Shown: piece after piece, positions 9,817 to 38,213 of the stretch
Layout of the letters: every line of letters begins with the position of its first letter
Position numbering within the stretch: the first letter of the stretch is position 1
Source: Bacteroidaceae bacterium
Lineage (GTDB): Bacteria > Bacteroidota > Bacteroidia > Bacteroidales > Bacteroidaceae
Assembly (NCBI GenBank): GCA_017517925.1
Contig: JAFWXS010000051.1
Location: 1 to 38,844, forward strand
DNA length: 38,844 nucleotides
Direction of reading: 5' to 3'
Made by a program: the position numbers and the translations under genes
The notes under the pieces: model-generated
The model's input: only the letters and a program-made list of their open reading frames with translations
What the model was told of the DNA's origin: nothing
Databases searched by the model: none

Positions 9817-9846
9817 GTCGCTTTTTTTATGAGGAATAGGGGCTTA

Positions 9847-9988
9847 GTGATAAATATTCAAGAAAATTTGATATTTCTCGTTCGTTTATTGCTATCTTTG
9901 CACTGAAGCGCGAAGATACTTTCACTCTCAGTGATAAATATTCAAGCAAGCTTGATATTTCTCGTTCGTTTATCCGTATCTTTGCGCT
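9847..9988 (+). promoter_or_regulatory. Tandem duplicated promoter cassette of the GH27 operon
   Basis: Two copies, 9847-9904 and 9931-9988, 84 bp apart. Each has GTGATAAATATTCAAG, four or so bases, TTGATATTT, CTCGTTCGTTTAT and the -7 box TATCTTTG (9893-9900 and 9977-9984). The arms AAATATTCAAG and CTTGATATTT form an imperfect inverted repeat lying where a -33 region would be. The proximal -7 box is 44 bp before the GH27 start codon. Confidence 0.8.
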
Positions 9989-10027: not shown

Positions 10028-13000
10028 ATGAAGAAACTTAAGACTTTAGGCGTGGCCATGCTGGCAGTAGCATCGCTTTGTGCACAAACGGGAACGGAAC
10101 AGACTTTCAAGACGTGGGCGCAGACTCCTCCCATGGGATGGAACTCGTGGGACTGCTTTGGCCCTACGGTTGTGGAAGAGGAGGTGAAACAGAATGCCGA
10201 TTACATGGCCGAACGTCTGGCGGCCTATGGATGGGAATATGTGGTGGTAGATATTCGTTGGTATGTGGAGAATGACAAGGCTGGTGGATATAACCAAACC
10301 AACCCCATCTATGTGTATGACGAGTATGGGCGGTATACCCCTGCCCTCAATCGCTTCCCCTCTGCTGCCGATGGTGTGGGGTTCAAGGCACTGGCCGATT
10401 ATGTGCACAACAAGGGGTTGAAGTTCGGAATACACCTTATGCGCGGATTGCCCAAGGTGGCTGCCGAGAAGAAGTTGCCGGTGAAGGGTACCGATGGCAT
10501 CACGTGTGACATGATTTGCAACAATGACTCGGCATGTACATGGCTACGTGACAACTATAAGGTGGACTGCACCAAGCCTGGTGCGCAGGAATACTATAAC
10601 TCCTGCTTTGATATGTATGCCCAGTGGGGAGTGGACTTCGTAAAGATTGATGACCTGTCCCGTCCCTACCATACAGGGGAGATAGAGATGATACGCAAGG
10701 CCATTGACCAGTGCGGACGCCCTATCGTGCTCAGCATATCACCGGGTGAGACACCGCTCGATAAGGTAGACCACGTGAAGGAGCATGCCAACATGTGGCG
10801 CACAGTGGATGACTTCTGGGACAATTGGAGCCAACTGAACTATCAGTTCCAGGTGTGTGCCAAGTGGGCGCCCTACATCGCTCCCGGTACGTGGCCCGAC
10901 GCAGACATGCTCCCTCTTGGAAAAATCAGTATCCGTGGTGAGCGAGGAGCAGAGCGATGGACACAGTTTACACGCGATGAGCAGTATACGATGATGAACC
11001 TCTGGACCATCTTCAAGAGCCCGTTGATGTTTGGTGGTCATCTGCCTGAGAACGATGCGGCTACCGACTCTCTGCTAACCAATCGCGATGTACTCTACAT
11101 GCACCACTACTCCATGAACAACCGTGAAGTGACAAATCAGGACAATCATGTGATGTGGAGTGCTGACGACCCTGCCAACGGAGATAAATTTGTTGCGCTC
11201 TTCAACCTCGGTGGCTCTGAGTTCGTGAACCCCAAGAATGTGCTGTGGCGCAGTGGAACCATATCGTACCTTACCACAGGCTATGCTACCAATGTTGAGG
11301 TGGACATCCCTGAGGGAAGCCGCGAACTGGCGTTGATTGCTACGGATGGCGGTGATGGATATGACTGTGACCATGCAGACTGGATCAATCCCATCGTGAC
11401 CATGCAGGATGGTTCGACCATAGACCTGACCTCTTACAAATACCTGCGTTCGACTTGTGGATGGGGTAGTGTGGCCATCAACAAGAACCTCAATGGAGGT
11501 AAGCTTAGTATTGATGGGACTACTTATGATAAAGGTATTGCTACCCATGCCAATTCCATTCTCCTCTATGAATTGCCTGAAGGTGCCGTAAAGTTTACGG
11601 CTCTTGTGGGTATAGACAATACAGGTAGCGATCAGGGTAGTAAGTCGTCGATAGAGTTTATGGTATTCAATGAAGACCCCACCATACGTATTGAGACTAC
11701 CGATCAGTGGAGCGGAGGAAACAAAACTATCAAGGTTGATCCCAACAAGCAGGTGGGTTATAGTGGATTCATCGGTCGCGTGGCTGGTCGCCAACAAGCT
11801 GTCGTGGAGGCCGATATTACTGGTGCCGAGAAACTTTATTTAGTAGTGACCAACGGAGGTGACGGACTTAGCTATGACCATGCAGACTGGGCCAACCCTG
11901 TGCTCATTGACAAGGATGGCAATGAGACCTCGCTCACCGAGATAAACTGGGATGCCAACCCCATCAATGGCTGGAATGCTCCCAAGAAGAACAAGAACAA
12001 TGACGGTAACACGATGGCTATTGCAGGGAAAACCTATGCCAAGGGATTCGGGGTGAACGCCCCCTCTATGCTCACATTCACCTTGCCCGAAGGACATGAA
12101 TATGTCGCTTTTAAGTCTACCGTGGGCTACGATGATGATGTGAAGAATGCTTCGTCTGGCGTCACCATGGAGTTCCGTCTCTTTACACAGGACCCCGCAC
12201 CGAGCAATACGGCTGTTGTGCCTCTTGACCTTACTCGATTAGGCTTCAGCGCGGAGCAGGAATGTCGCATTGTCGAAATGTGGAAGGGTGTCGACATGGG
12301 GACTTATAAGGGTTGTGAATTCGCACCTGTGCTTCGATCTCATGAAAGTGCTCTTTATCGTGTGTCGCCACAAGGACGTGCCGAGGGAGCTACAGTCTCG
12401 CTTTATCAGCCCGAGGCCGAGGAGGGCAAGCCCAATACGGAGTTATATATCCGAGTGTCTGATGCTGCCACTGAAGAAGGGTATGTGCAGCTACTTTGCA
12501 ATGGTAAGGTGCTGAGTGTGCAGGCTCTCGATGCAGATGGGCGGGCAACCTATAACTATGGTGGTCTGTATGCTGGTACCTATACTTTTCAGGCACTTTA
12601 TAGCGGCACCACCACTACCGCTGGTGTTGCATCGGAGAAACTCACCATTACTATGGCTGGAGAGGCTGAAGACCTCAGCATATTGCAGAACCGTCTTGCC
12701 GATCTGGTTTCAGAGGCGGAGTCTATAGACCAGAGTAATGTCGCCGGTGCATTGCGCGCTTCATTGGATGAGGCCATTGAGATGGCAAAGAGTGCTGATG
12801 TCAATGTGAAAGCAGAACTGGAATCGGCTATTGTTACCCTGCAAGAGGCTATGGAGAAGGCTCGGCTCTCCATGAGCAGCATGCGTAACCTGCAGTCGGC
12901 CATTGCAGAGGCCAATGCCTTCGTCAATCTTATGGCCGAAGGTGAAGTACGTACAGCCTTGGTGGATGGCATTGCTGCAGCTTCGGATGTTCTCATGGGA

Positions 13001-13768
13001 ACGGCTTCGACTCTTGATGAGGTGAAGGGGGCTGTCACGGCTCTCAATGATCTTCTCCTTGAATCAAAGAAAACTGGTGAGCCATTGGCTGGGCAGATGT
13101 TCGAGATGACAGAGTTTCTCACTAACCCCAGTTTTGAACTCGGTACCACAGGATGGGCTCTCGATAAGCAGGCTTCAGGATGGTCAGACTTTGCTACCTG
13201 GAGCGACCGCCCTGCAGCAGGGGGGAATAGCTTTGTTAGTGTTATTTGTCAGAGCATTACCCGTCTTGACCTCAACCAGACCGTTCGGGAACTTCCTGCG
13301 GGGGTATATACTGTGGAGGCGAGCCTGCGCAACACCGATGGGGCACACTGTTTGAGCGATCAGCATATCTATGCCCAGGCAGGAGATGTTACCTATAGTT
13401 CGAATCCCTTAACGACAGTGAGCGGGACGGGCAATAATGATTGGACACGCTTGGTGGTGACAGATGTTGACTTGGCAGCTAATGCTCCATTACGTATAGG
13501 GGCTTGTTCTACGGGCGATGGATCAAGTACCAAAGGCTGGTTTCAGGCTGATGACTTTCACCTTTATTATTGGGGAAAGAAGAGTGACCCGGGAACGGGA
13601 GTTGATAATAGGCTTCAGCAGGTTGTAGGACGCCAATATTTTGATTTGCAGGGTACACAATTGTCAACTCCTAAGTGGGGCTTTAACATAGTCAAGGAGG
13701 TTCTTGATAATGGAAGAGTCAGGGTAAGGAAATTGCTGGTTGATGAGAAACATGTTCTTGTAGAGTAA
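10028..13768 (+). CDS. Secreted GH27-family alpha-galactosidase with two NPCBM modules and C-terminal CBM
   Basis: 1246 aa. Signal peptide about 1-19. GH27 catalytic domain about 25-430 (TPPMGWNSWDCFG at the start); nucleophile Asp208 in VKIDD and acid/base Asp261 in MWRTVDDFW. It should release terminal alpha-galactosyl (or related) residues; a few GH27 enzymes act on arabinopyranose or N-acetylgalactosamine. Two NPCBM-like modules follow (about 430-560 and 590-725; both contain DGG/GGDG...DHADW and 'KGIATHA/KGFGVNA'). Then come an Ig-like region, a FIVAR-like helical linker about 885-1000, a jelly-roll CBM (LTNPSFELGTTGW) and a degenerate YFDLQGTQLSTPKWG sorting-type tail. First gene of the operon, 10 bp before the fusion gene, driven by the tandem cassette upstream. 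Confidence 0.92.
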   Translation: MKKLKTLGVAMLAVASLCAQTGTEQTFKTWAQTPPMGWNSWDCFGPTVVEEEVKQNADYMAERLAAYGWEYVVVDIRWYVENDKAGGYNQTNPIYVYDEYGRYTPALNRFPSAADGVGFKALADYVHNKGLKFGIHLMRGLPKVAAEKKLPVKGTDGITCDMICNNDSACTWLRDNYKVDCTKPGAQEYYNSCFDMYAQWGVDFVKIDDLSRPYHTGEIEMIRKAIDQCGRPIVLSISPGETPLDKVDHVKEHANMWRTVDDFWDNWSQLNYQFQVCAKWAPYIAPGTWPDADMLPLGKISIRGERGAERWTQFTRDEQYTMMNLWTIFKSPLMFGGHLPENDAATDSLLTNRDVLYMHHYSMNNREVTNQDNHVMWSADDPANGDKFVALFNLGGSEFVNPKNVLWRSGTISYLTTGYATNVEVDIPEGSRELALIATDGGDGYDCDHADWINPIVTMQDGSTIDLTSYKYLRSTCGWGSVAINKNLNGGKLSIDGTTYDKGIATHANSILLYELPEGAVKFTALVGIDNTGSDQGSKSSIEFMVFNEDPTIRIETTDQWSGGNKTIKVDPNKQVGYSGFIGRVAGRQQAVVEADITGAEKLYLVVTNGGDGLSYDHADWANPVLIDKDGNETSLTEINWDANPINGWNAPKKNKNNDGNTMAIAGKTYAKGFGVNAPSMLTFTLPEGHEYVAFKSTVGYDDDVKNASSGVTMEFRLFTQDPAPSNTAVVPLDLTRLGFSAEQECRIVEMWKGVDMGTYKGCEFAPVLRSHESALYRVSPQGRAEGATVSLYQPEAEEGKPNTELYIRVSDAATEEGYVQLLCNGKVLSVQALDADGRATYNYGGLYAGTYTFQALYSGTTTTAGVASEKLTITMAGEAEDLSILQNRLADLVSEAESIDQSNVAGALRASLDEAIEMAKSADVNVKAELESAIVTLQEAMEKARLSMSSMRNLQSAIAEANAFVNLMAEGEVRTALVDGIAAASDVLMGTASTLDEVKGAVTALNDLLLESKKTGEPLAGQMFEMTEFLTNPSFELGTTGWALDKQASGWSDFATWSDRPAAGGNSFVSVICQSITRLDLNQTVRELPAGVYTVEASLRNTDGAHCLSDQHIYAQAGDVTYSSNPLTTVSGTGNNDWTRLVVTDVDLAANAPLRIGACSTGDGSSTKGWFQADDFHLYYWGKKSDPGTGVDNRLQQVVGRQYFDLQGTQLSTPKWGFNIVKEVLDNGRVRVRKLLVDEKHVLVE

Positions 13769-29441: not shown

Positions 29442-30965
29442 TTACTGAGGTAACGTCACACGGAACATGTCGCTGTGAGTATGCTCACGCAGCAGGATGG
29501 CCTTCATCTCCTCCACAACCTCGGGGTACTGTGCTGCAAGGTCGTTGTCCTCGTGCAGGTCGGTAGCGAGGTCGTAGAGCTGACAGTTGCCGCTCTGTAC
29601 TACTAACTTCCAATCCCCCATGCGAAGGGCCATCATATTGGTTTCGTGGAACTCCCAATAGAGAAACTCGTGCTTCTCCTGTTCACCATCACCAAGCAAT
29701 GTCGGAGCAAAGGAGATACCGTCGAAGAATTCTTTACCTTCTTTCACTAATTGGGGGTTGGCATATCTCTCAGCATAGTTGTCGATGCCGGCCACCTCGC
29801 AGAAGGTAGGCATGAGGTCGTAGAAGGCCAATTGGTGGTCGTTGACTGTACCAGCCTCTATCTGTCCTGGCCACCAGGCGATGAAGGGTACACGGATACC
29901 GCCCTCTGTGGTCGAGCGCTTGGTGCCGCGCAGCAGTTTCTCGGTGTTGAAGTAGTCGGGGTCGGCACCGCCTTCGGTGTGGGGACCGTTGTCGCTGGTG
30001 AAGATGACGAGCGTGTTCTTGTCCAATCCCTTGCGGCGCAAGAGGTCGAGCACCTCTCCCACATGCTTGTCGAGGCGGGTCACCATGGCGGCAAACTGCT
30101 GATGGCCCACATCAGTGGGGTTATAGCGCGAACCGGCATCACCACCGTAGGTCTTCTCCACGCAGAAGGCTCCCTGGTATGCCTTGAAGATGGAGTCTTC
30201 GGGCTGTGCCAGCTCGGCATGGGGCAGGGTATAGGTGAGTACACCGAAGAAGGGCTTGTCGGCTGTCTGCTTGTCAATCCACGCCATGGCACGCTGGTGT
30301 ATGAGGTCGGCCGAGTAGTCGCGGCGGTTCTTGTATTCTGTGCCGTGCATGGGATGGTCGATGTTGTTCTCCAGTATCTCACGGCGTACCTCCTCGTCAA
30401 TGCCACGGGTGTAGGCATTGAGGAAGTTGGGGTAGTAGAGGTGTGCCTGGAACTGGCACATGAAGCCGTAGTACTCGTCGATACCTCGCGTTGCAGGTGT
30501 CGAGATGGAGCCCTCGTAGCCACCGGCCCACTTGCCGAACATGCCGGTAGTGTAGCCGTTGTCCTTCATGATTTCGGGCAGGATGACGTGTGCCGTGTCG
30601 TACGGCTCCTGGCCTGTCTGCACAGGGTCTTGGTTGTTACCATACATTATGCTGCCTATGCGATATTCCTTGTTGCCACGAACCTTGGTGTGTCCCGTGT
30701 GTTGTCCAGTCATGAACGATGCACGCGAAGGCGCACTTACGGGGCTTCCCGCGTATGCTTGGGTGAAGCGCATGCCTTCCCGTGCCATGCGGTCGAGGTT
30801 GGGGGTGCTGATGTACTCCTGTCCGTAGCAACCCACATCGGCGTAACCGAGGTCGTCGCACATGATATAGATGATGTTGGGCCGTTGTGTTTGCTGTGCT
30901 TGTGCCTGTATTCCTGGAACTGCCATCAGTCCGCAGCCGAGGAGGAACCATTGCTTGTTTTCCAT
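29442..30965 (-). CDS. Secreted sulfatase, serine type (S1 family)
   Basis: 507 aa. Signal peptide about 1-22. Type I sulfatase fold: metal-binding Asp37/Asp38 in MCDDLGYADVGCYG, active-site motif S77-A-P-S-R81 in SPVSAPSRASFMTGQHTG, and FTSDNGPH for the calcium site. Ser77 would have to be oxidised to formylglycine by an anaerobic sulfatase-maturating enzyme, which is not in this window. It removes sulfate from a glycan in the periplasm or outside; substrate unknown. It lies 25 bp after the GEVED-domain protein gene, so it is probably the second gene of an operon driven by the cassettes at 33103-33247. Confidence 0.93.
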   Translation of the reverse strand: MENKQWFLLGCGLMAVPGIQAQAQQTQRPNIIYIMCDDLGYADVGCYGQEYISTPNLDRMAREGMRFTQAYAGSPVSAPSRASFMTGQHTGHTKVRGNKEYRIGSIMYGNNQDPVQTGQEPYDTAHVILPEIMKDNGYTTGMFGKWAGGYEGSISTPATRGIDEYYGFMCQFQAHLYYPNFLNAYTRGIDEEVRREILENNIDHPMHGTEYKNRRDYSADLIHQRAMAWIDKQTADKPFFGVLTYTLPHAELAQPEDSIFKAYQGAFCVEKTYGGDAGSRYNPTDVGHQQFAAMVTRLDKHVGEVLDLLRRKGLDKNTLVIFTSDNGPHTEGGADPDYFNTEKLLRGTKRSTTEGGIRVPFIAWWPGQIEAGTVNDHQLAFYDLMPTFCEVAGIDNYAERYANPQLVKEGKEFFDGISFAPTLLGDGEQEKHEFLYWEFHETNMMALRMGDWKLVVQSGNCQLYDLATDLHEDNDLAAQYPEVVEEMKAILLREHTHSDMFRVTLPQ

Positions 30966-30990: not shown

Positions 30991-33075
30991 TTACTTGTTC
31001 AGATAGAGTTTCACGTTCTTGTAGCCGTTGGCTGTGGTGGCACGGGCGATGTAGGTACCTTGGGTGATGGGGGCTATCGGCAATGTGTTGCCGTTGCACT
31101 GTGCCACTAAGGCAGCCTCTATGGTATAGAGGCTAAGCGAGCATATTTCGGTGTTGCTTGTAGCTACGATATTGTCTCCTTGCACGCTGATTGTCACTTC
31201 ATCAGCATTGTCAATGGTGAGCGAGGGTACATCCGTATCCACTTGGGTGTTAGCCGTGAAGTAGGCTTTGAGTTTTACGTTATGGTCTACGGTAAAGGTG
31301 TATTCCGCATCGGTCGATACCACTACGCCCTCTTCGCGCCAGCATACGAAAGTGGCATCGCCCTTCGGTGTAGCCCTGGCGGTGAGTGTAGTGCCGTAGG
31401 TGTAGTTGTCGGCTGTGCTTGACAGGGTCGCTGTACCACGGTTGGCGGCATTGACAGCCACGGTGGCGGTGCGTTCCTCTTGTGGATCCACTACGGTGAG
31501 GTGGAAGTCGTATACAAATCCCTCCACATCATCATCGGCAAGTTCGAGTCCGTTGCTATTGATGCGTAGGCGCATGCGTACCGAACCTGCAGCTGCCGTG
31601 TCGGGAACGGTTACGCCGGCCGTTCCTGTTGTACCGTTGAGGGCGATGGGTGTTATTGCTTCAAATTCTCCGTCGGCATTCCAGTCAAAGTAGGCATTGG
31701 CGGTGAGGTCGGCTGTAGGAGTGCTTGCTATGGTGATGTCGATGTCGAATACGGCTCCACGTGCTACCTCCCCACGGTCGTGTGGATAGGTAACGTGCCA
31801 TTTTGAGGGCTTGTTTGAAGCTTCATAGATGATGTTGCCCGGGGCACCTTCGCCATGTACCTTGGCCGAGGTGAGGTAGTTGCTGCCGGCTGTCCCGCAG
31901 GGATTGAAGTAGATGTTCAGATTCTGTGCCAACGGGGTGTGCTGGGGAGCCTCATATACGTCGGTGGTCTCTACTAACTTCCAATACGAACCTACGCGGC
32001 TGGTACCTGCCTGCCAAGTGATGACGTAGCTCGATGCACCATCCTTGTTCAGTGCGCGTGGACCCTTGCTCTCGTCGCTGTAGTCGGCACAGTCGGTAGA
32101 GCTGAAGTAGTGGCATCCCACAATCTCACCGCTTGTGGCCGAGGTGGCCTTTACATAATATTCCACCGGTGTTTCCGAGGTGGTTATGCGCGATGCCGAT
32201 GAGGGGTTGAGGTTACAGCTGCCCATATAGCGGCCGGTCACCACGTTCTTGATATAGTAGCAATTAACGTTTGCTGTGGGGATGAGTGTCCAGAACTGTG
32301 CCTTGCTCACGTTCTTGCCAGCTACGGTGAGGTAGTGGTCGCTGCCTTCGGTGATTTGGTTCCCACCCGTGTTTTTCCATTGTATGTAATACACTTTGGC
32401 TTCGGTGTCGTCGGGCTCGGGCTCAGGTTTGGGAGTTGGCTCTGTGCTTGCTGTGTTCAACCTTACCTCGGAGAGTCCGAAGAAGCAACCTCCGTTAGTC
32501 ACGCCCTTGGTGACGGTGAGTTTTATGATGGTTGCGCCCTCGCTCTTGACGGTTTCCGAAGAGGCGATTTCCCACATCTTATGTACACTTACCTGAGAGA
32601 TACCTACACCGGCAGCGATATCGGTGTCGGTAAGTGTGCCGAAATCGGCAAGTGATTCTTCGCTGCTGCCTGTAGCTGCAGCGATGTTCCACTGGCGTGC
32701 CACCCCATCGTTGTTCTGCTGGTAATTGCTTCCTCCGTTGAGGGCATGGATGTCGAGTCCGATGTTGTTGAACGTGAAGCCGGCGGGGAGCCCGTTCACT
32801 TGCAGTGTCAGTTCGATGGTGGGGTTAGTGTTGGCGTTCACATTGGGGCATACGATGGATTCCGTTACGGCATTGCCTGTGGCTTTCAGCGTATGTGACG
32901 AGGTGAGTGTGGCTGTTGCACCGTCGATAGCTGTGCCCTCGGCATCGGTCACGCTCACTGCGACGCTGGCGGCATCAGTGCCTGTGCGATTGAATTTCAG
33001 GCTTACGACATTTTCTGAAGCCTGTATTCCTGTAAACGCGAAGAATAGGGCTGCAATAGTCAGGACTCTTTTCAT
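30991..33075 (-). CDS. Secreted multidomain protein with GEVED and bacterial-repeat modules
   Basis: 694 aa from the ATG at 33075 (MKRVLTIAALFFAFTGIQASE); a TTG seven codons upstream is less likely. Signal peptide about 1-19. N-terminal beta-domain to about 215, then a Pro/Glu linker (PTPKPEPEPDD), a ricin-like module (AQFWTLIP, GRYMGSC), a GEVED-type module (NPCGTAGSNYLTSAK, YFDWNADGEFE, VRMRLRIN), a bacterial-repeat domain (GTTLTARATPKGDATFVCW, FTVDHNVKLKAYF) and a C-terminal LYTIEAALV...QGTYIARA...KLYLNK tail of the sorting type. No enzyme domain; probably glycan-binding at the cell surface. First gene of the sulfatase operon. Confidence 0.8.
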   Translation of the reverse strand: MKRVLTIAALFFAFTGIQASENVVSLKFNRTGTDAASVAVSVTDAEGTAIDGATATLTSSHTLKATGNAVTESIVCPNVNANTNPTIELTLQVNGLPAGFTFNNIGLDIHALNGGSNYQQNNDGVARQWNIAAATGSSEESLADFGTLTDTDIAAGVGISQVSVHKMWEIASSETVKSEGATIIKLTVTKGVTNGGCFFGLSEVRLNTASTEPTPKPEPEPDDTEAKVYYIQWKNTGGNQITEGSDHYLTVAGKNVSKAQFWTLIPTANVNCYYIKNVVTGRYMGSCNLNPSSASRITTSETPVEYYVKATSATSGEIVGCHYFSSTDCADYSDESKGPRALNKDGASSYVITWQAGTSRVGSYWKLVETTDVYEAPQHTPLAQNLNIYFNPCGTAGSNYLTSAKVHGEGAPGNIIYEASNKPSKWHVTYPHDRGEVARGAVFDIDITIASTPTADLTANAYFDWNADGEFEAITPIALNGTTGTAGVTVPDTAAAGSVRMRLRINSNGLELADDDVEGFVYDFHLTVVDPQEERTATVAVNAANRGTATLSSTADNYTYGTTLTARATPKGDATFVCWREEGVVVSTDAEYTFTVDHNVKLKAYFTANTQVDTDVPSLTIDNADEVTISVQGDNIVATSNTEICSLSLYTIEAALVAQCNGNTLPIAPITQGTYIARATTANGYKNVKLYLNK

Positions 33076-33102: not shown

Positions 33103-33247
33103 AGCGACAAAGATAATAATAAGCGGGCGAGAAACACGAAGTTTACTTCAGTATTTTTCAAAGCGAGCGAAAAATATCTTCGCGGTTAATCGCAAAGGTA
33201 GGAATAAACGAGCGAAATAATATCAAGATTGCTTGAATATTTTTCAC
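33103..33247 (-). promoter_or_regulatory. Tandem duplicated promoter cassette of the GEVED-protein/sulfatase operon
   Basis: Minus strand, distal copy 33189-33247: AAATATTCAAGCAATCTTGATATT, shown as arms AAATATTCAAG and CTTGATATT, then TTTCGCTCGTTTATT and -7 TACCTTTG (33193-33200). Proximal copy 33103-33160: AAATACTGAAG, four bases, CTTCGTGTTT, then CTCGCCCGCTTAT and -7 TATCTTTG (33108-33115). The -7 boxes are 85 bp apart. The proximal arms differ from the other copies but still pair (GAAG/CTTC). Confidence 0.8.
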
Positions 33248-33290
33248 AGCGAGTGCCATTTTATCTTCGCTGCTTTCGGAAATAAACAGC

Positions 33291-33524: not shown

Positions 33525-36500
33525 TTATCTGATAACCTTTTTACCATTTACAATATACATCTTTCCTTTTTCCATGGTGGTCACCTTGCGTCCCATGAGG
33601 TCGTAGATGATTTCTGATTCCAAGAATGTGGATTCAGTGTCCTCGATATCTGTCTCCTCACCGAAAGCACGGTGGCGTACACGGGCCTGTTGGCCGTCGC
33701 TCCAGTTGATAGCACCTTTGGGCAGGCGGATGTAGGCACGGAAAGGCTTGAAGGTTATTACTTTCGTGGTCACGCCTTGCGATAGGTAGTAGAGCTGGCC
33801 ATCGGTACCAAAGAAGAGGATGTCGTATGTGCCGTCCTCCATCAGAACCGTAGAGCTCATGGTGGTGTAAGTACCGATGAACTCACCTTCAGAACCGTTG
33901 ACGGTTACGTTCATCGTTTCGGGTGTGGCCGCTACGGCTGTGTTGCTCAACGAAGCAAATAGGGCAGCAGTCTCTGTACTGTTTTTAATGATGTAGGGCT
34001 TGTTGGCCTCCATCGTACCCTTAACCTCATCGAAGGTGAAGGTCTTGGTGTCAAGATTTATAGCTCCTAATGTCTCCACCTTTACGTTTTCGGGGATTGG
34101 GTAAGCGAAAGGCAGGCATACGGTGAGCCAAGTATCCTTGGTGAACTCACGCTCATAACTCACTCCGTTAGCAGTGAAGTTTGTTGTGGCATTGAAGGCA
34201 TAGCCATCGGTGAGTGACAATTGTTTTGCAGTGCCGTTAACGATGACATTGCTTTCATTGCTTACCTGACCCTCATTGGCAATGATGAGAGCATTGGGAG
34301 TATCTGTGACGTTTACAGCGAGGCTACTCATTGCAGCGTTTGTAACGTCGTGAGTAGTATGGACAGCTGTAATGTCTTCAGTATATTCACCATAGTGTTT
34401 CACAATGTTGTCTTCTTTTATAGTGTAGTTGGGTCTCAGATAGTAGAGCATCATACCGCCGACATTGGCTTCACGATTATTGTTAGTATTTGACAGACTA
34501 ATGGCTATCGTATTCTCTCCAGCCTTAGCATCAAAGTAGATATATTGGTATACCCATCCGAAGCCCTTGTTGTCATTAGCAAACGTTTTTCCTGCTTCAA
34601 TACCAGCAGCGACACTTACCCATTCCGTGCCATCCGTTGCGATGGTACCTCCTGTGCGCCCGTGTGCTCCCATTGTTTTATGGCTCTTGCCATTGATGAT
34701 GATGTCAACATACGATGCTGACTCTACAGCTCTGGCTGCTACTTTCAACAGGTAAGTGCCATCCTTCGGTAAGTTAACTATCTGTGTACGAGCCGCTCCA
34801 TTCTCGTGGTTTTGTGCAAAGTATAGCTTTTCAGTTCCACTCCAATGTTCCGTAGTCCCAGTTGCACGTCCTGTACCATCCCATTTATCATTGCTTGCAC
34901 AATCTGCATTGGTAATCTTACTCGTATAATCTTCCAGCATTTTATACTTTAGGTAATCCTCAAATACCGCATCCATTGCGGCATTGAGGGCTACGGCAGC
35001 ATTGGAAAATCTATCATAGCTGTTAGTAATATCCTTGGCACACGCAGCTTCAGCAACGGCAGTAAGCAGCCCGTCCCATTCGACAATAAAGCGAAGAGCA
35101 CCATTTGCTCCATCGTTAAATTCTGTTTCGAAACGTTCAAGAGCGGTTACAAGCTTGTCCTTCTCGGTGTTATAGGTGCTGCGCCATGCATTGGCATTGG
35201 CAACGGCTGTCTTCAGTCCATCTACAGCCGCGTTTAATTCTGTAGGGCTAGATAGTTCGCTTTCTCCAATTGTGATGGCTTCAGCTAAAGCAGTGTTTTC
35301 AGCATCGCCCATCGGGAGGGTATTGACAAGAGTTTTTGCCTCTGCTAAGGGAGCATCAAGTTCCTTGCCATATACGGAGACATAAGTAGCATCGTCCATC
35401 CAAAGAGTGATGTCAGAGAAGCTTGCCCAACCATATACGCCATTGTAGTCACATTCAACCGTCAGTGTTACGGTGGTCTCTTCTGTTAACTCAAACTTGA
35501 CGAACTCCCATTCCCAACCGCGACCATTATTGTCGTTGGCATACGTGCTGTTGGGAGAGAAACTGGCCGCCCCGTTTATTGTAATACCATATCCCTGGTC
35601 TCCTTTTCCTTCTACATTTACAGTCTCGTCCAATACCGTGAGCTTGAGGGTGGTATTCTCATTTGAGCGAAGGGCGGCTTTTAGTACATAGTTTCCAGCG
35701 GGTAAAGTGATATTGGTTGTAGTGCTATGTGCGTTGCCATTCCATGAGTTATTATCATAGTACTTTGTAGCATTTTCGCCAGTAGTGCCATCCCAATGTT
35801 GTCCACCAGTGTTCTTGCCTCCCATGGTTCCTTCCCAACCTGTAACTTCAATGTTGTTGGGGAAAATGAGAGATGCAGCTTCAAATCTCAGCACATTCAA
35901 TTCCTGACGTGTAGTCTCTACATCAGTAGAAGCATATTCGCCATTGTTGTATTTAGTTGTATAACTTGTGACATCGGTAAATTCAGCTGTCATATCGATG
36001 TACTTCTTCAACTTGGCATAATCGTTGATAGAGGACTCGGCAGAAGCCATAGCTTCGTTCAAAGCATTAATCATGTTATCCAGTGTGGCTGGGTCAGTAG
36101 CTGTAGCATCGGAAGTCTGAATTGTACTGTTCAGTGCTCCCTTTATGGTAGCATTCATCGGTTTGCTGGCCATAGTGTTTGCTCCTGTAAGTAAATCAGT
36201 GAGGACGCTCTGCATGGTTTTGGCATCGTATGATCGGTAGAGTTTGAAGTTGTCCACAGAGAACCATGTGTTATTATTTGTTCCCTTGAGGCCTAACTCC
36301 ATAGAACCGCCATTGACAACAACAATATTTGGTACTGTTACCAATCCCCAAGGATTACCAGTGTCCTCACCACCGATAACGACTGTCTTATACTCTACAC
36401 CATTGCTGGTGGCATATACATAATACATATTTGCTCCATTGCCACGGGCCATAGCTGTCAAAGTGTATACACCATTTGCCAGATTGTTGATGGTTTGCTT

Positions 36501-38213
36501 GGCATATACAGTCGTACCGTTGGTGGAACCAGCATCCCATCTGTCCAAAGCGTAAACATCAGGAGCATTGGTATAATCCACATTGCTCGCAAGATTGGCA
36601 TTGGTCTCCCAATTGTCCTTAGATGTTACCTCTGCGTTTAGGATCTTGTATGTTACGTCAAAGCTATTCCCTGTTGTTGGATAGGCTACAGTGATGAATT
36701 CCTGGCGTGCAGCCTCCAAAGTGTTGTACACAGCATTCAAGGCTTCTAAGCTCTCAGCATCATTGGCATCATTCTTTGCCAAACTGATAGCTGATGTAAA
36801 TGTAGTGCGAATATCTGTAGTTTCTACGTTAGAGTAACTCTCTGCTGCATAAGTCTCACAAAGAGAGATAAGTTCGTTTATCGACGAGTAAATAGGAATA
36901 ACACCATTTGCCAAATTAATGGCAGCGTCCAATATGGCAACTTGATTTTCAAGACTCTCGACCGTTCTTGAAGCATCGCTCAATGCATTTTCGGCTGCTG
37001 TAATCTTGTTTGCAAGATAATCGCTTGTGTATGTATTCAACTTGGTCTTATCTATCGCTTTGGCAACTTCGATTTTGCTACTCAGTGCATTTTCATACGT
37101 GGTCAAATCCTTTCCACAATAGGTAATGGTGAAGTTATCGATGTTTGCCCATCTGTATTGAGCCGTTCCTGTAGAACTGGCAGTGATAGTCAGTTCTCCA
37201 TTCGCAACAACACATTCCACAGTCATGTATTGCCATCCTGCAACGCCTGACCCAAGAGTGACCTCTGTGCCATCTGCGCTAATGGAACCTCCTTCAGCTC
37301 CAATACAATTAAGGTTGGTAGACACACCGTTTGCCGTAAGTGTCAGCACAACATCTGTTGGAGAGGCTTGCCCAGCTGCCTTGACAATATATTTACCATT
37401 AGGGAGGGATGTGATGGTTTGTGTCATTGAGCCTTCCCAAGAAGAGGCGTTCCAATTACAGAACTCAAAAAAGCCACCTTTGCCATCATAACCATTATTG
37501 GTGTTTCTTGTTATGGTATTAGCTGTAGTCCATCCCCCTAAACCGACAACGGGGAGTGCTGCGTCCCTGTTGGCCATCATCACTGTCATGTCCACGGTGT
37601 TTGCGTTTGTGGCATTAGGGGCGAGAACATCTACGCAATAGGTCTTGTGTATAGCGTAAATCTGAAATTTACCGATGGCATCACCTGTTTTGTTGCAAGC
37701 AACTTCTGCTCCGTCCTGTACAGTGTTGCTCCAAGGACCCAAATATCCACTATCAGGATATTTGCCGTTTTGAATTGTCCAGCAAGCCTCACTCAGTGAA
37801 TATGTTGGAATAGTCGCAGTCCATTCGCATGCGTTGGCTTGGTCATGGGTGCGGTAATACCATGCAGCGCCCCACTCTGTTTGTAAAGCAAACTTTGTGT
37901 ATTCAGTATTTCTAAAGGTATAGTTGGTTCCCTCTATCGTCCATAACGCCGCCTTGTTCTGCAATGGATTAACAGAACTCTTATAATACATGGTATAGTA
38001 AGAACTTCCTTGATTGGCTCCAACTGCCATCGTTAACATCAGATCATTGCTGTTGTCTACGAGCGCATAGTAATAGTCTGTTAAGTTTGTGGGGATTTCT
38101 GTAATCTTTTGCCATCCTTCACTCTCCTTAAGGATAGAAGTGTCTGCCTTTGCGCTTGTTGTTACTCCCAGCACTGCAATAAGCATTGCGAAAAGTTTAT
38201 TTAGTTTTTTCAT
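33525..38213 (-). CDS. Giant secreted protein with repeated CBM and FIVAR-like modules
   Basis: 1562 aa. Signal peptide about 1-23 (MKKLNKLFAMLIAVLGVTTSAKA). A ricin-like N-terminal module (ALWTIEGTNYTF, ACWTIQNGKY) to about 195 is followed by four jelly-roll, carbohydrate-binding-like modules with a shared LPNGKYIVKAAG-type strand (LPNGKYIV, LANGVYTL, LPAGNYVL, LPKDGTYLL), separated by helical FIVAR-like linkers rich in Ala, Asn and Leu. A long beta-rich region follows, and the last residues are IIYDLMGRKVTT...KGKMYIVNGKKVIR, a sorting-type C-terminus. No catalytic domain is recognised; it probably binds glycan at the surface. It starts 12 bp after the metallophosphoesterase gene. The linker-plus-CBM layout also occurs in the C-terminus of the GH27 enzyme. 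Confidence 0.8.
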   Translation of the reverse strand: MKKLNKLFAMLIAVLGVTTSAKADTSILKESEGWQKITEIPTNLTDYYYALVDNSNDLMLTMAVGANQGSSYYTMYYKSSVNPLQNKAALWTIEGTNYTFRNTEYTKFALQTEWGAAWYYRTHDQANACEWTATIPTYSLSEACWTIQNGKYPDSGYLGPWSNTVQDGAEVACNKTGDAIGKFQIYAIHKTYCVDVLAPNATNANTVDMTVMMANRDAALPVVGLGGWTTANTITRNTNNGYDGKGGFFEFCNWNASSWEGSMTQTITSLPNGKYIVKAAGQASPTDVVLTLTANGVSTNLNCIGAEGGSISADGTEVTLGSGVAGWQYMTVECVVANGELTITASSTGTAQYRWANIDNFTITYCGKDLTTYENALSSKIEVAKAIDKTKLNTYTSDYLANKITAAENALSDASRTVESLENQVAILDAAINLANGVIPIYSSINELISLCETYAAESYSNVETTDIRTTFTSAISLAKNDANDAESLEALNAVYNTLEAARQEFITVAYPTTGNSFDVTYKILNAEVTSKDNWETNANLASNVDYTNAPDVYALDRWDAGSTNGTTVYAKQTINNLANGVYTLTAMARGNGANMYYVYATSNGVEYKTVVIGGEDTGNPWGLVTVPNIVVVNGGSMELGLKGTNNNTWFSVDNFKLYRSYDAKTMQSVLTDLLTGANTMASKPMNATIKGALNSTIQTSDATATDPATLDNMINALNEAMASAESSINDYAKLKKYIDMTAEFTDVTSYTTKYNNGEYASTDVETTRQELNVLRFEAASLIFPNNIEVTGWEGTMGGKNTGGQHWDGTTGENATKYYDNNSWNGNAHSTTTNITLPAGNYVLKAALRSNENTTLKLTVLDETVNVEGKGDQGYGITINGAASFSPNSTYANDNNGRGWEWEFVKFELTEETTVTLTVECDYNGVYGWASFSDITLWMDDATYVSVYGKELDAPLAEAKTLVNTLPMGDAENTALAEAITIGESELSSPTELNAAVDGLKTAVANANAWRSTYNTEKDKLVTALERFETEFNDGANGALRFIVEWDGLLTAVAEAACAKDITNSYDRFSNAAVALNAAMDAVFEDYLKYKMLEDYTSKITNADCASNDKWDGTGRATGTTEHWSGTEKLYFAQNHENGAARTQIVNLPKDGTYLLKVAARAVESASYVDIIINGKSHKTMGAHGRTGGTIATDGTEWVSVAAGIEAGKTFANDNKGFGWVYQYIYFDAKAGENTIAISLSNTNNNREANVGGMMLYYLRPNYTIKEDNIVKHYGEYTEDITAVHTTHDVTNAAMSSLAVNVTDTPNALIIANEGQVSNESNVIVNGTAKQLSLTDGYAFNATTNFTANGVSYEREFTKDTWLTVCLPFAYPIPENVKVETLGAINLDTKTFTFDEVKGTMEANKPYIIKNSTETAALFASLSNTAVAATPETMNVTVNGSEGEFIGTYTTMSSTVLMEDGTYDILFFGTDGQLYYLSQGVTTKVITFKPFRAYIRLPKGAINWSDGQQARVRHRAFGEETDIEDTESTFLESEIIYDLMGRKVTTMEKGKMYIVNGKKVIR

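Follow-up and report, generated by a model that had tools for sequence, protein, structure and literature searches.

Promoter propagation in prokaryotes has been described under the name of putative mobile promoters. The repeated cassettes that we analyse here share with these the spread of promoter sequences to unrelated genes of one genome, and go beyond that concept in that their units have defined boundaries, are palindromic and join at the −7 box. They also resemble REP, BIME and REPIN elements, as short non-coding intergenic palindromes that are present in tens of copies, are arranged in tandem or in pairs and are apparently copied within genomes. REPs carry at the foot of their hairpin a tag, GTAG or CGTC, as named in the part of PMC3733652 that deals with it. 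Unlike in REP, BIME and REPIN elements, the arms and stems of our modules vary in sequence while pairing is kept; furthermore, the modules are oriented towards genes at promoters, carry −33 and −7 elements and, in contrast with REPINs and their RAYT partners, are not enriched beside RAYT-like genes.

Other mobile DNA offers partial parallels. As in MITEs, the element is short and non-autonomous, has inverted arms, occurs at many loci and is polymorphic as a whole unit between aligned sequences. Unlike in MITEs, the terminal arms, although inverted in relation to each other within the unit, have no fixed sequence and covary from one unit to the next. The box itself was the only target duplication noticed, and the Y1 families searched yielded no parent transposon. 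With the ends of IS200/IS605 elements, going by the relevant portion of PMC6006769 and by general knowledge, the modules share two hairpins, a short guide-like stretch with the capacity to pair with the end, and a junction 3′ of a short invariant sequence in which the element also terminates. This likeness is one of resemblance only: the hairpins vary in sequence and no transposase gene is linked to the modules, the Y1-like genes of several unit-bearing genomes included. Finally, PINSR of Prevotella intermedia is an intergenic repeat amplified within a Prevotella (177 and 184 copies in two strains), but it is 188 bp long, has no terminal inverted repeats, and the word promoter does not occur in those sections of PMC4755523 that describe it. 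No description of the present element was recognised among the open-access papers listed for the terms chosen. Searched with Rfam covariance models, the cassettes of nine sources contained nothing that reached the gathering score; the window itself contains one unrelated match, to the DUF805b RNA (RF02914; 4134-4168, minus strand; 39.3 bits against a gathering score of 35.6).

The window is the whole 38,844-nt contig JAFWXS010000051.1 of a Bacteroidaceae bacterium (GCA_017517925.1), the genome of which is referred to below as G000. On balance, we think it probable that the cassettes in this window belong to a set of dispersed, promoter-carrying palindromic modules that are copied between loci, are joined at −7 boxes and rebuild the promoter.

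Two arrays in the window

Two tandem arrays were found, one before an alpha-galactosidase gene and another before a sulfatase operon (Table 1). The original prediction described the cassette as duplicated at both operons with almost the same spacing, and both pairs are real: the −7 boxes are 84 bp apart in the galactosidase array and 85 bp apart in the sulfatase array. The linker-plus-box pattern occurs four times in the window against 0.10 expected, and none of 100 shuffles reached four. A TTG at 9952-9954 lies 22 nt before the box of the proximal galactosidase unit; no clear TTG was seen at the −33 position of the proximal sulfatase unit, and no left arm was recognisable in the distal galactosidase unit.

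Table 1 Features of the galactosidase and sulfatase arrays in the window
Feature	Position	Strand	Detail or basis
Distal galactosidase unit	9843-9900	+	Inner hairpin 9852-9876; −7 box 9893-9900
Palindromic spacer between the galactosidase units	9900-9912	+	Family test
Proximal galactosidase unit	9913-9984	+	Left arm 9913-9918; inner hairpin 9936-9960; −7 box 9977-9984
Alpha-galactosidase gene with NPCBM domain	10028-13768	+	Served by the galactosidase array
Sulfatase gene	29442-30965	−	
First gene of the sulfatase operon (GEVED and InlB B-repeat domains)	30991-33075	−	
−7 box TATCTTTG, gene-proximal sulfatase unit	33115-33108	−	32 nt before the ATG at 33075-33073
Inner hairpin, proximal sulfatase unit (AAAAATACTGAAG TAAA CTTCGTGTTT)	33132-33158	−	Direct reading
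Left arm AAGATA, proximal sulfatase unit	33175-33180	−	Direct reading and family test
Palindromic inter-unit spacer, sulfatase array, including the last base of the distal box	33181-33193	−	Direct reading and family test
−7 box TACCTTTG, distal sulfatase unit	33200-33193	−	Linker-plus-box pattern match
Inner hairpin, distal sulfatase unit (AAAAATATTCAAG CAAT CTTGATATT)	33219-33244	−	Direct reading
Left arm AAGATA, distal sulfatase unit	33262-33267	−	Comparison with the family
Remnant GTTTATTTCC of a further upstream unit, without −7 box	33287-33278	−	Direct reading

By direct reading, the left arm of the proximal sulfatase unit pairs with its own end TATCTT and not with the TACCTT of the previous unit; in the distal unit the left arm is identical, and one of its bases does not fit the end TACCTT of that unit. 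The two arms changed jointly, from CAAG...CTTG in the distal unit to GAAG...CTTC in the proximal one. It had been proposed from this joint change that pairing or dyad symmetry matters, a view strengthened by the covariation of the arms across the family. A degenerate third unit had also been predicted distal to the pair. What looks like a decayed remnant is indeed present there, but the adjoining GCGAAGATA (33270-33262), which had been assigned to it, belongs to the distal unit, whose left arm it forms. An ORF of 1562 aa (33525-38213, minus strand) without Pfam match at 0.001 is situated upstream of the array.

Copies and distribution of the family

G000 is a draft of 2.36 Mb (76.6% complete), and the closest relatives compared are drafts as well, many of them 60–93% complete. 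Copies were searched by pattern, so that units with other cores are missed and all counts are lower bounds. The box-plus-linker pattern gave 53 matches in G000 with up to three mismatches, against 11 for the reversed control, and a stricter pattern gave 21 against none. Among the fetched loci of this genome (L001-L050) we have identified 26 arrays with 36 units, nine of the arrays having two or three units; an ORF start is close downstream in 25 of the 26. Not all units are whole: when the core of the pattern was slightly altered, a left arm could be recognised in 18 units of this genome. The genes that follow are unrelated to one another and, as recognised by eye from N-terminal sequences, include those for RNase HII, valyl-tRNA synthetase, a DEAD-box helicase, XerD, DapB, XseA, an LptF/G-like protein, PrmA and IlvD.

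At least one match to this type-1 pattern was found in 17 of 18 other sampled genomes of the genus. A second type of unit with other linkers (type 2) is present in G016, G003 and G009, all poor by the type-1 pattern; a wider pattern gave 47, 51 and 33 exact matches in these genomes, respectively, with 1, 0 and 0 in the controls. Outside the genus sample, the exact type-1 23-mer occurs in 69 stretches of public genomes, whose record titles all name Bacteroidales, many from ruminant gut and a few from isolates. It was absent from viral contigs, and the plasmid and phage collections contained nothing relevant, only four short Parageobacillus matches. Seventeen of the 69 loci were viewed in context and comprise complete units (e.g., L064 and L104) as well as bare promoters that match only the right half of the unit (L068, L070 and L084).

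The same gene may differ in its array between genomes. Among the loci displayed, only G000 has a type-1 array pointing towards xseA and xerD. The type-2 arrays of G003, G016 and G017 at xseA sit in a stretch of approximately 700–930 bp, which is missing between the same neighbours in G009 and G011.

Anatomy of the unit and conservation of pairing

The module is a nested palindrome of approximately 67 nt, repeated with its spacer at a period of 83–85 nt. It begins with a left arm, followed in turn by a CTCG-containing linker, the inner hairpin, CGCTCG with eight further bases, and the box TAnnTTTR. The left arm (e.g., AAGATA or AGATAGG) pairs with the TAnnTTT end of its own unit. This match holds for 141 of 179 units, where independence would predict 99.6; the highest value in 5000 shuffles was 115. 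In the 73 pairs of consecutive units caught by a regular expression, the arm followed its own box in 18 of the 18 pairs with differing boxes and the previous box in none; with identical boxes, the arm matched in 47 of 55 pairs and was mismatched in eight. Two loci from other Prevotella-like records, both outside the regular expression, depart from this rule: the left arm AGTTA of L112 fits the previous box TAACTTTG rather than the unit's own TATCTTTG, and that of L116 fits neither box.

The spacer is also palindromic. Its 63 distinct sequences in the 73 pairs showed 83.6% Watson–Crick pairing, against 45.6% with shuffled halves (maximum 53.8%). The last base of the upstream box takes part, being A opposite T in 52 cases and G opposite C in 11, with other combinations in 10. 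The effect in the inner stem is modest, because the stems share a consensus: in 96 distinct stems the energy was −5.06 kcal/mol with their own arms and −4.20 (s.d. 0.20) with permuted arms, and none of 2000 permutations was as low. Scoring the folding of the inner stem over 36 nt likewise gave a weak signal (mean z −0.82, against −0.15 in the control). One nested hairpin is formed by a type-2 unit (z −5.07), whereas folding is weak for both type-1 units in the window (z −0.68 and −1.97), so that the folded state of the window copies is deduced from the family. Taken over the whole family, covariation shows that the strand can fold as one nested hairpin.

Another palindromic insert, of approximately 70–78 bp and of the form AACGGACGGAGCAGCGAG...GAGTCGYGACGGACGAAAACGCAGTTAAA, was observed after CTCGG inside units at L281 and L365 (L340 and L375 appear similar by eye); it is present or absent between close genomes.

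Promoter content and orientation

The Bacteroidetes consensus comprises TTTG at −33 and TANNTTTGY at −7, in the wording of the relevant part of PMC8748976. In 202 of 241 distinct units a TTG ends 19–22 nt before the TAnnTTTR box, and the units thus have the form of a Bacteroidetes housekeeping promoter: −33 and −7 elements at fixed spacing upstream of a gene. This sequence pattern suggests that the right half of the unit acts as a promoter.

Box sequence depends on position. In arrays of at least two units, G is the last base of 38 of 43 gene-proximal boxes and A that of 33 of 46 upstream boxes. In many apparent exceptions a further, slightly different unit follows that ends in TTTG; the rule is not universal, since the upstream boxes of G000 often keep TTTG. 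The gene-proximal box is located at a median of 25 nt from the ORF start. For the 166 G-terminated arrays with enough flank, a co-oriented ORF start was found within 250 nt in 161 and within 60 nt in 147. Random points gave 57% and 34%, respectively, a high baseline because in-frame starts inside genes count. In a mirror test, looking back on the other strand, only nine of the 166 arrays had an ORF start within 60 nt.

Presence, absence and apparent copying of units

Three close genomes (G003, G016 and G009) were compared in 31 groups of orthologous arrays (51 cross-genome pairs), and a second set comprised 12 groups (20 pairs). Both scans kept only gaps of 55–130 bases with conserved flanks. 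The trio yielded five clean differences of one unit (83–86 bp) next to the gene, each with its break between TAnnTTT and G (L289/L297, L360/L292, L354/L303, L309/L350 and L349/L371); in all five, the longer array has an A as the last base of its inner box and the shorter array a G as the last base of its box. The second set added one difference, of type 1 and at a box further up (L106/L069). In total, therefore, six of 71 aligned pairs differ by one unit, each at a −7 box.

The remaining rows of the scans (five of 10 in the trio and two of three in the second set) are not unit additions. In the trio, L281 and L365 carry the second kind of insert described above, L289 differs from L284 by other DNA, and two identical rows for L331/L375 represent one 76-bp difference of which only the left part is unit-like. 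Both remaining rows of the second scan reflect one different insert, in G002 and in a near-identical record. A deletion between boxes would leave the same ends as an addition, so that gain and loss are not settled case by case; for L303/L354 the box bases fit deletion slightly better.

The similarity between units bears on their origin. Identity averaged 0.774 between adjacent units and 0.776 between units picked at random from one genome, and 10 of 23 adjacent pairs lie above the average. Two of the 23 (L253 and L293) are at least 95% alike, hence local duplication does occur. As the main source of arrays, tandem duplication is not supported on average, adjacent units being no closer than random ones. 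The identity of 0.662 found for the same locus is a maximum over few comparators and offers no fair contrast. Of 126 full units, 32 have a match of at least 95% at another locus of their genome, although this number may be inflated where one locus was assembled twice.

Identical units of 67 nt precede two different genes in G016 (L303, where it is the extra unit, and L330) and two in G003 (L333 and L343). A third near-identical pair, L280/L367, has identical flanks, is probably one locus assembled twice and is not counted. The spacers differ within both of the pairs counted, each being palindromic, which indicates that a unit can travel without its spacer. At L297, spacer and unit match L276/L279 together, over 84 nt at 96.4%. 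We have also observed apparent replacement of a whole unit at one gene between close genomes (L316/L333 and L322/L355/L368).

RAYT-like proteins

RAYT-like proteins were searched with PF01797, a four-sequence alignment and NF047646. The protein found is long, shows HxH and YIxDNP motifs by eye and matches the NCBIfam model REP_Tyr_transpos with an E-value of 3e-11 and 43.4 bits, below the cut-off of 80. In several loci (L135, L140, L134 and others) it has 340–560 aa with a C-terminal extension of about 150 aa, which by eye looks DprA-like; in G000 and G013 it contains a long low-complexity insert. Y1 subclasses with a large C-terminal domain and without associated REPs are listed in the part of PMC6006769 concerned with them, and the protein would fit such a subclass. 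A different palindrome (CTCGGCGGGACAACGCCGAG-like) was seen beside the RAYT-like gene in the flanks of L140 and L134, and is perhaps its real REP.

Alternative explanations

The original prediction read the cassettes as a sign that the galactosidase and sulfatase operons are co-regulated; in such a regulon a transcription factor would bind the dyad. The same element does lie upstream of both operons, but the genome-wide count and the gene list speak against a two-operon regulon: 26 arrays precede diverse genes in G000, many of them unrelated housekeeping genes rather than members of one glycan pathway, and the inner-arm sequence varies from locus to locus. Homologues of the galactosidase gene (79% identity in G002; 50–52% in G004, with two copies, G014, G001 and G010) and of the first gene of the sulfatase operon (65% in G001 and 69% in G006) have no such unit at their promoter, and one G004 copy (L179) has type-2 units that face the other way. 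As the relatives compared are not very close, their lack of units counts moderately rather than strictly. Co-regulation of the two operons was rejected on these grounds, and a factor-binding dyad is in our opinion very improbable. An RNA element in the transcript, such as a leader or an attenuator, would account for strong pairing in the face of sequence change, and many type-2 spacers look like intrinsic terminators with a GC stem and a T-run. The arrays lie upstream of the gene-proximal −7 box, however, and the transcript would not contain them; together with the lack of Rfam families in the cassettes of the nine sources, this makes such an element quite unlikely.

A serious rival, which concerns the mechanism rather than the anatomy and to which we would give about one chance in three, is recombination or template switching alone: ordinary promoters that share sequence would exchange or add unit-length pieces by homologous or microhomology-driven copying, with no mobile element or enzyme, and hairpin (quasipalindrome) correction would keep the arms complementary. 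The right halves of units are similar, the breakpoints lie inside a repeated box, whole units were apparently replaced at one gene, and the two near-identical adjacent pairs fit as well. Moreover, NF047646 remained unmatched at E ≤ 1 in eight of 19 genomes of the genus, including the unit-rich G003, G016 and G009, in which PF01797 was not found either (these drafts are 88–89% complete). Against it stands the average similarity of adjacent units, which is no greater than that of random ones and is not what local slippage alone would leave, and the retention of three palindromes (outer arms, inner stem and spacer) through sequence change exceeds what recombination explains by itself. That the modules are instead REPIN-like elements moved by the RAYT-like Y1 protein of the genus appears improbable, and this transposase is a weak candidate for the mover. 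Among the genomes that have 11 or more type-1 matches, 10 of 14 contain the protein at a score above 60 bits, as do four of the 47 that have fewer; this association is partly an artefact of the pattern, since type-1 counts miss type-2 units. The hairpins, the guide-like left arm and the cleavage-like end recall IS200/IS605 ends, within what the part of PMC6006769 on them covers, and an array lies downstream of the RAYT-like gene in G014 and G012; it faces the next gene and, in G014, is approximately 190–390 nt away. Nevertheless, the unit core was found in two of 26 RAYT-like loci (overlapping fetches included) and in six of 75 control loci of the genus, i.e., without enrichment. Across 38 Y1 loci the type-1 pattern had no match with up to three mismatches, one with four and five with five, and palindromes of other sequence, as judged by eye, adjoin some RAYT-like genes.

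Proposed mechanism and implications

Returning to dispersed promoter modules, the reading that we favour, each cassette would be one copy of the family, and a new module would be added to an existing promoter between the TAnnTTT and the G of its −7 box; from the six presence/absence cases we infer gain rather than loss. As the module brings a TAnnTTT end of its own, the old G would serve again and a full promoter would still stand before the gene. The old box would usually turn into TTTA and become part of the palindromic spacer, and repeated additions would result in tandem arrays pointing at genes. The source of a module would mostly be another locus, not the neighbouring unit. Candidate movers are an enzyme acting on the folded single strand, and recombination or template switching between repeats.

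A more specific version, which we regard as rather unlikely, is an element that homes to promoters: a single-strand hairpin, defined by structure and not by a fixed sequence, would be inserted by some factor at the same point of the promoter box. The left arm would possibly act as a guide by pairing with the −7 box. Because the promoter would be regenerated each time, spread would be nearly harmless while rewiring promoter strength across the genome.

For annotation, a word of caution follows: in Bacteroidales, cassettes may recur upstream of genes without signalling a shared regulon. The covarying palindromes also provide a natural series for testing whether the cell reads folded DNA and not sequence. 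If the proposed mechanism is true, this would be mobile DNA that avoids harm by landing on, and replacing, the promoter's own box, and it would give unrelated genes a route to gain, lose or swap promoters between close species.
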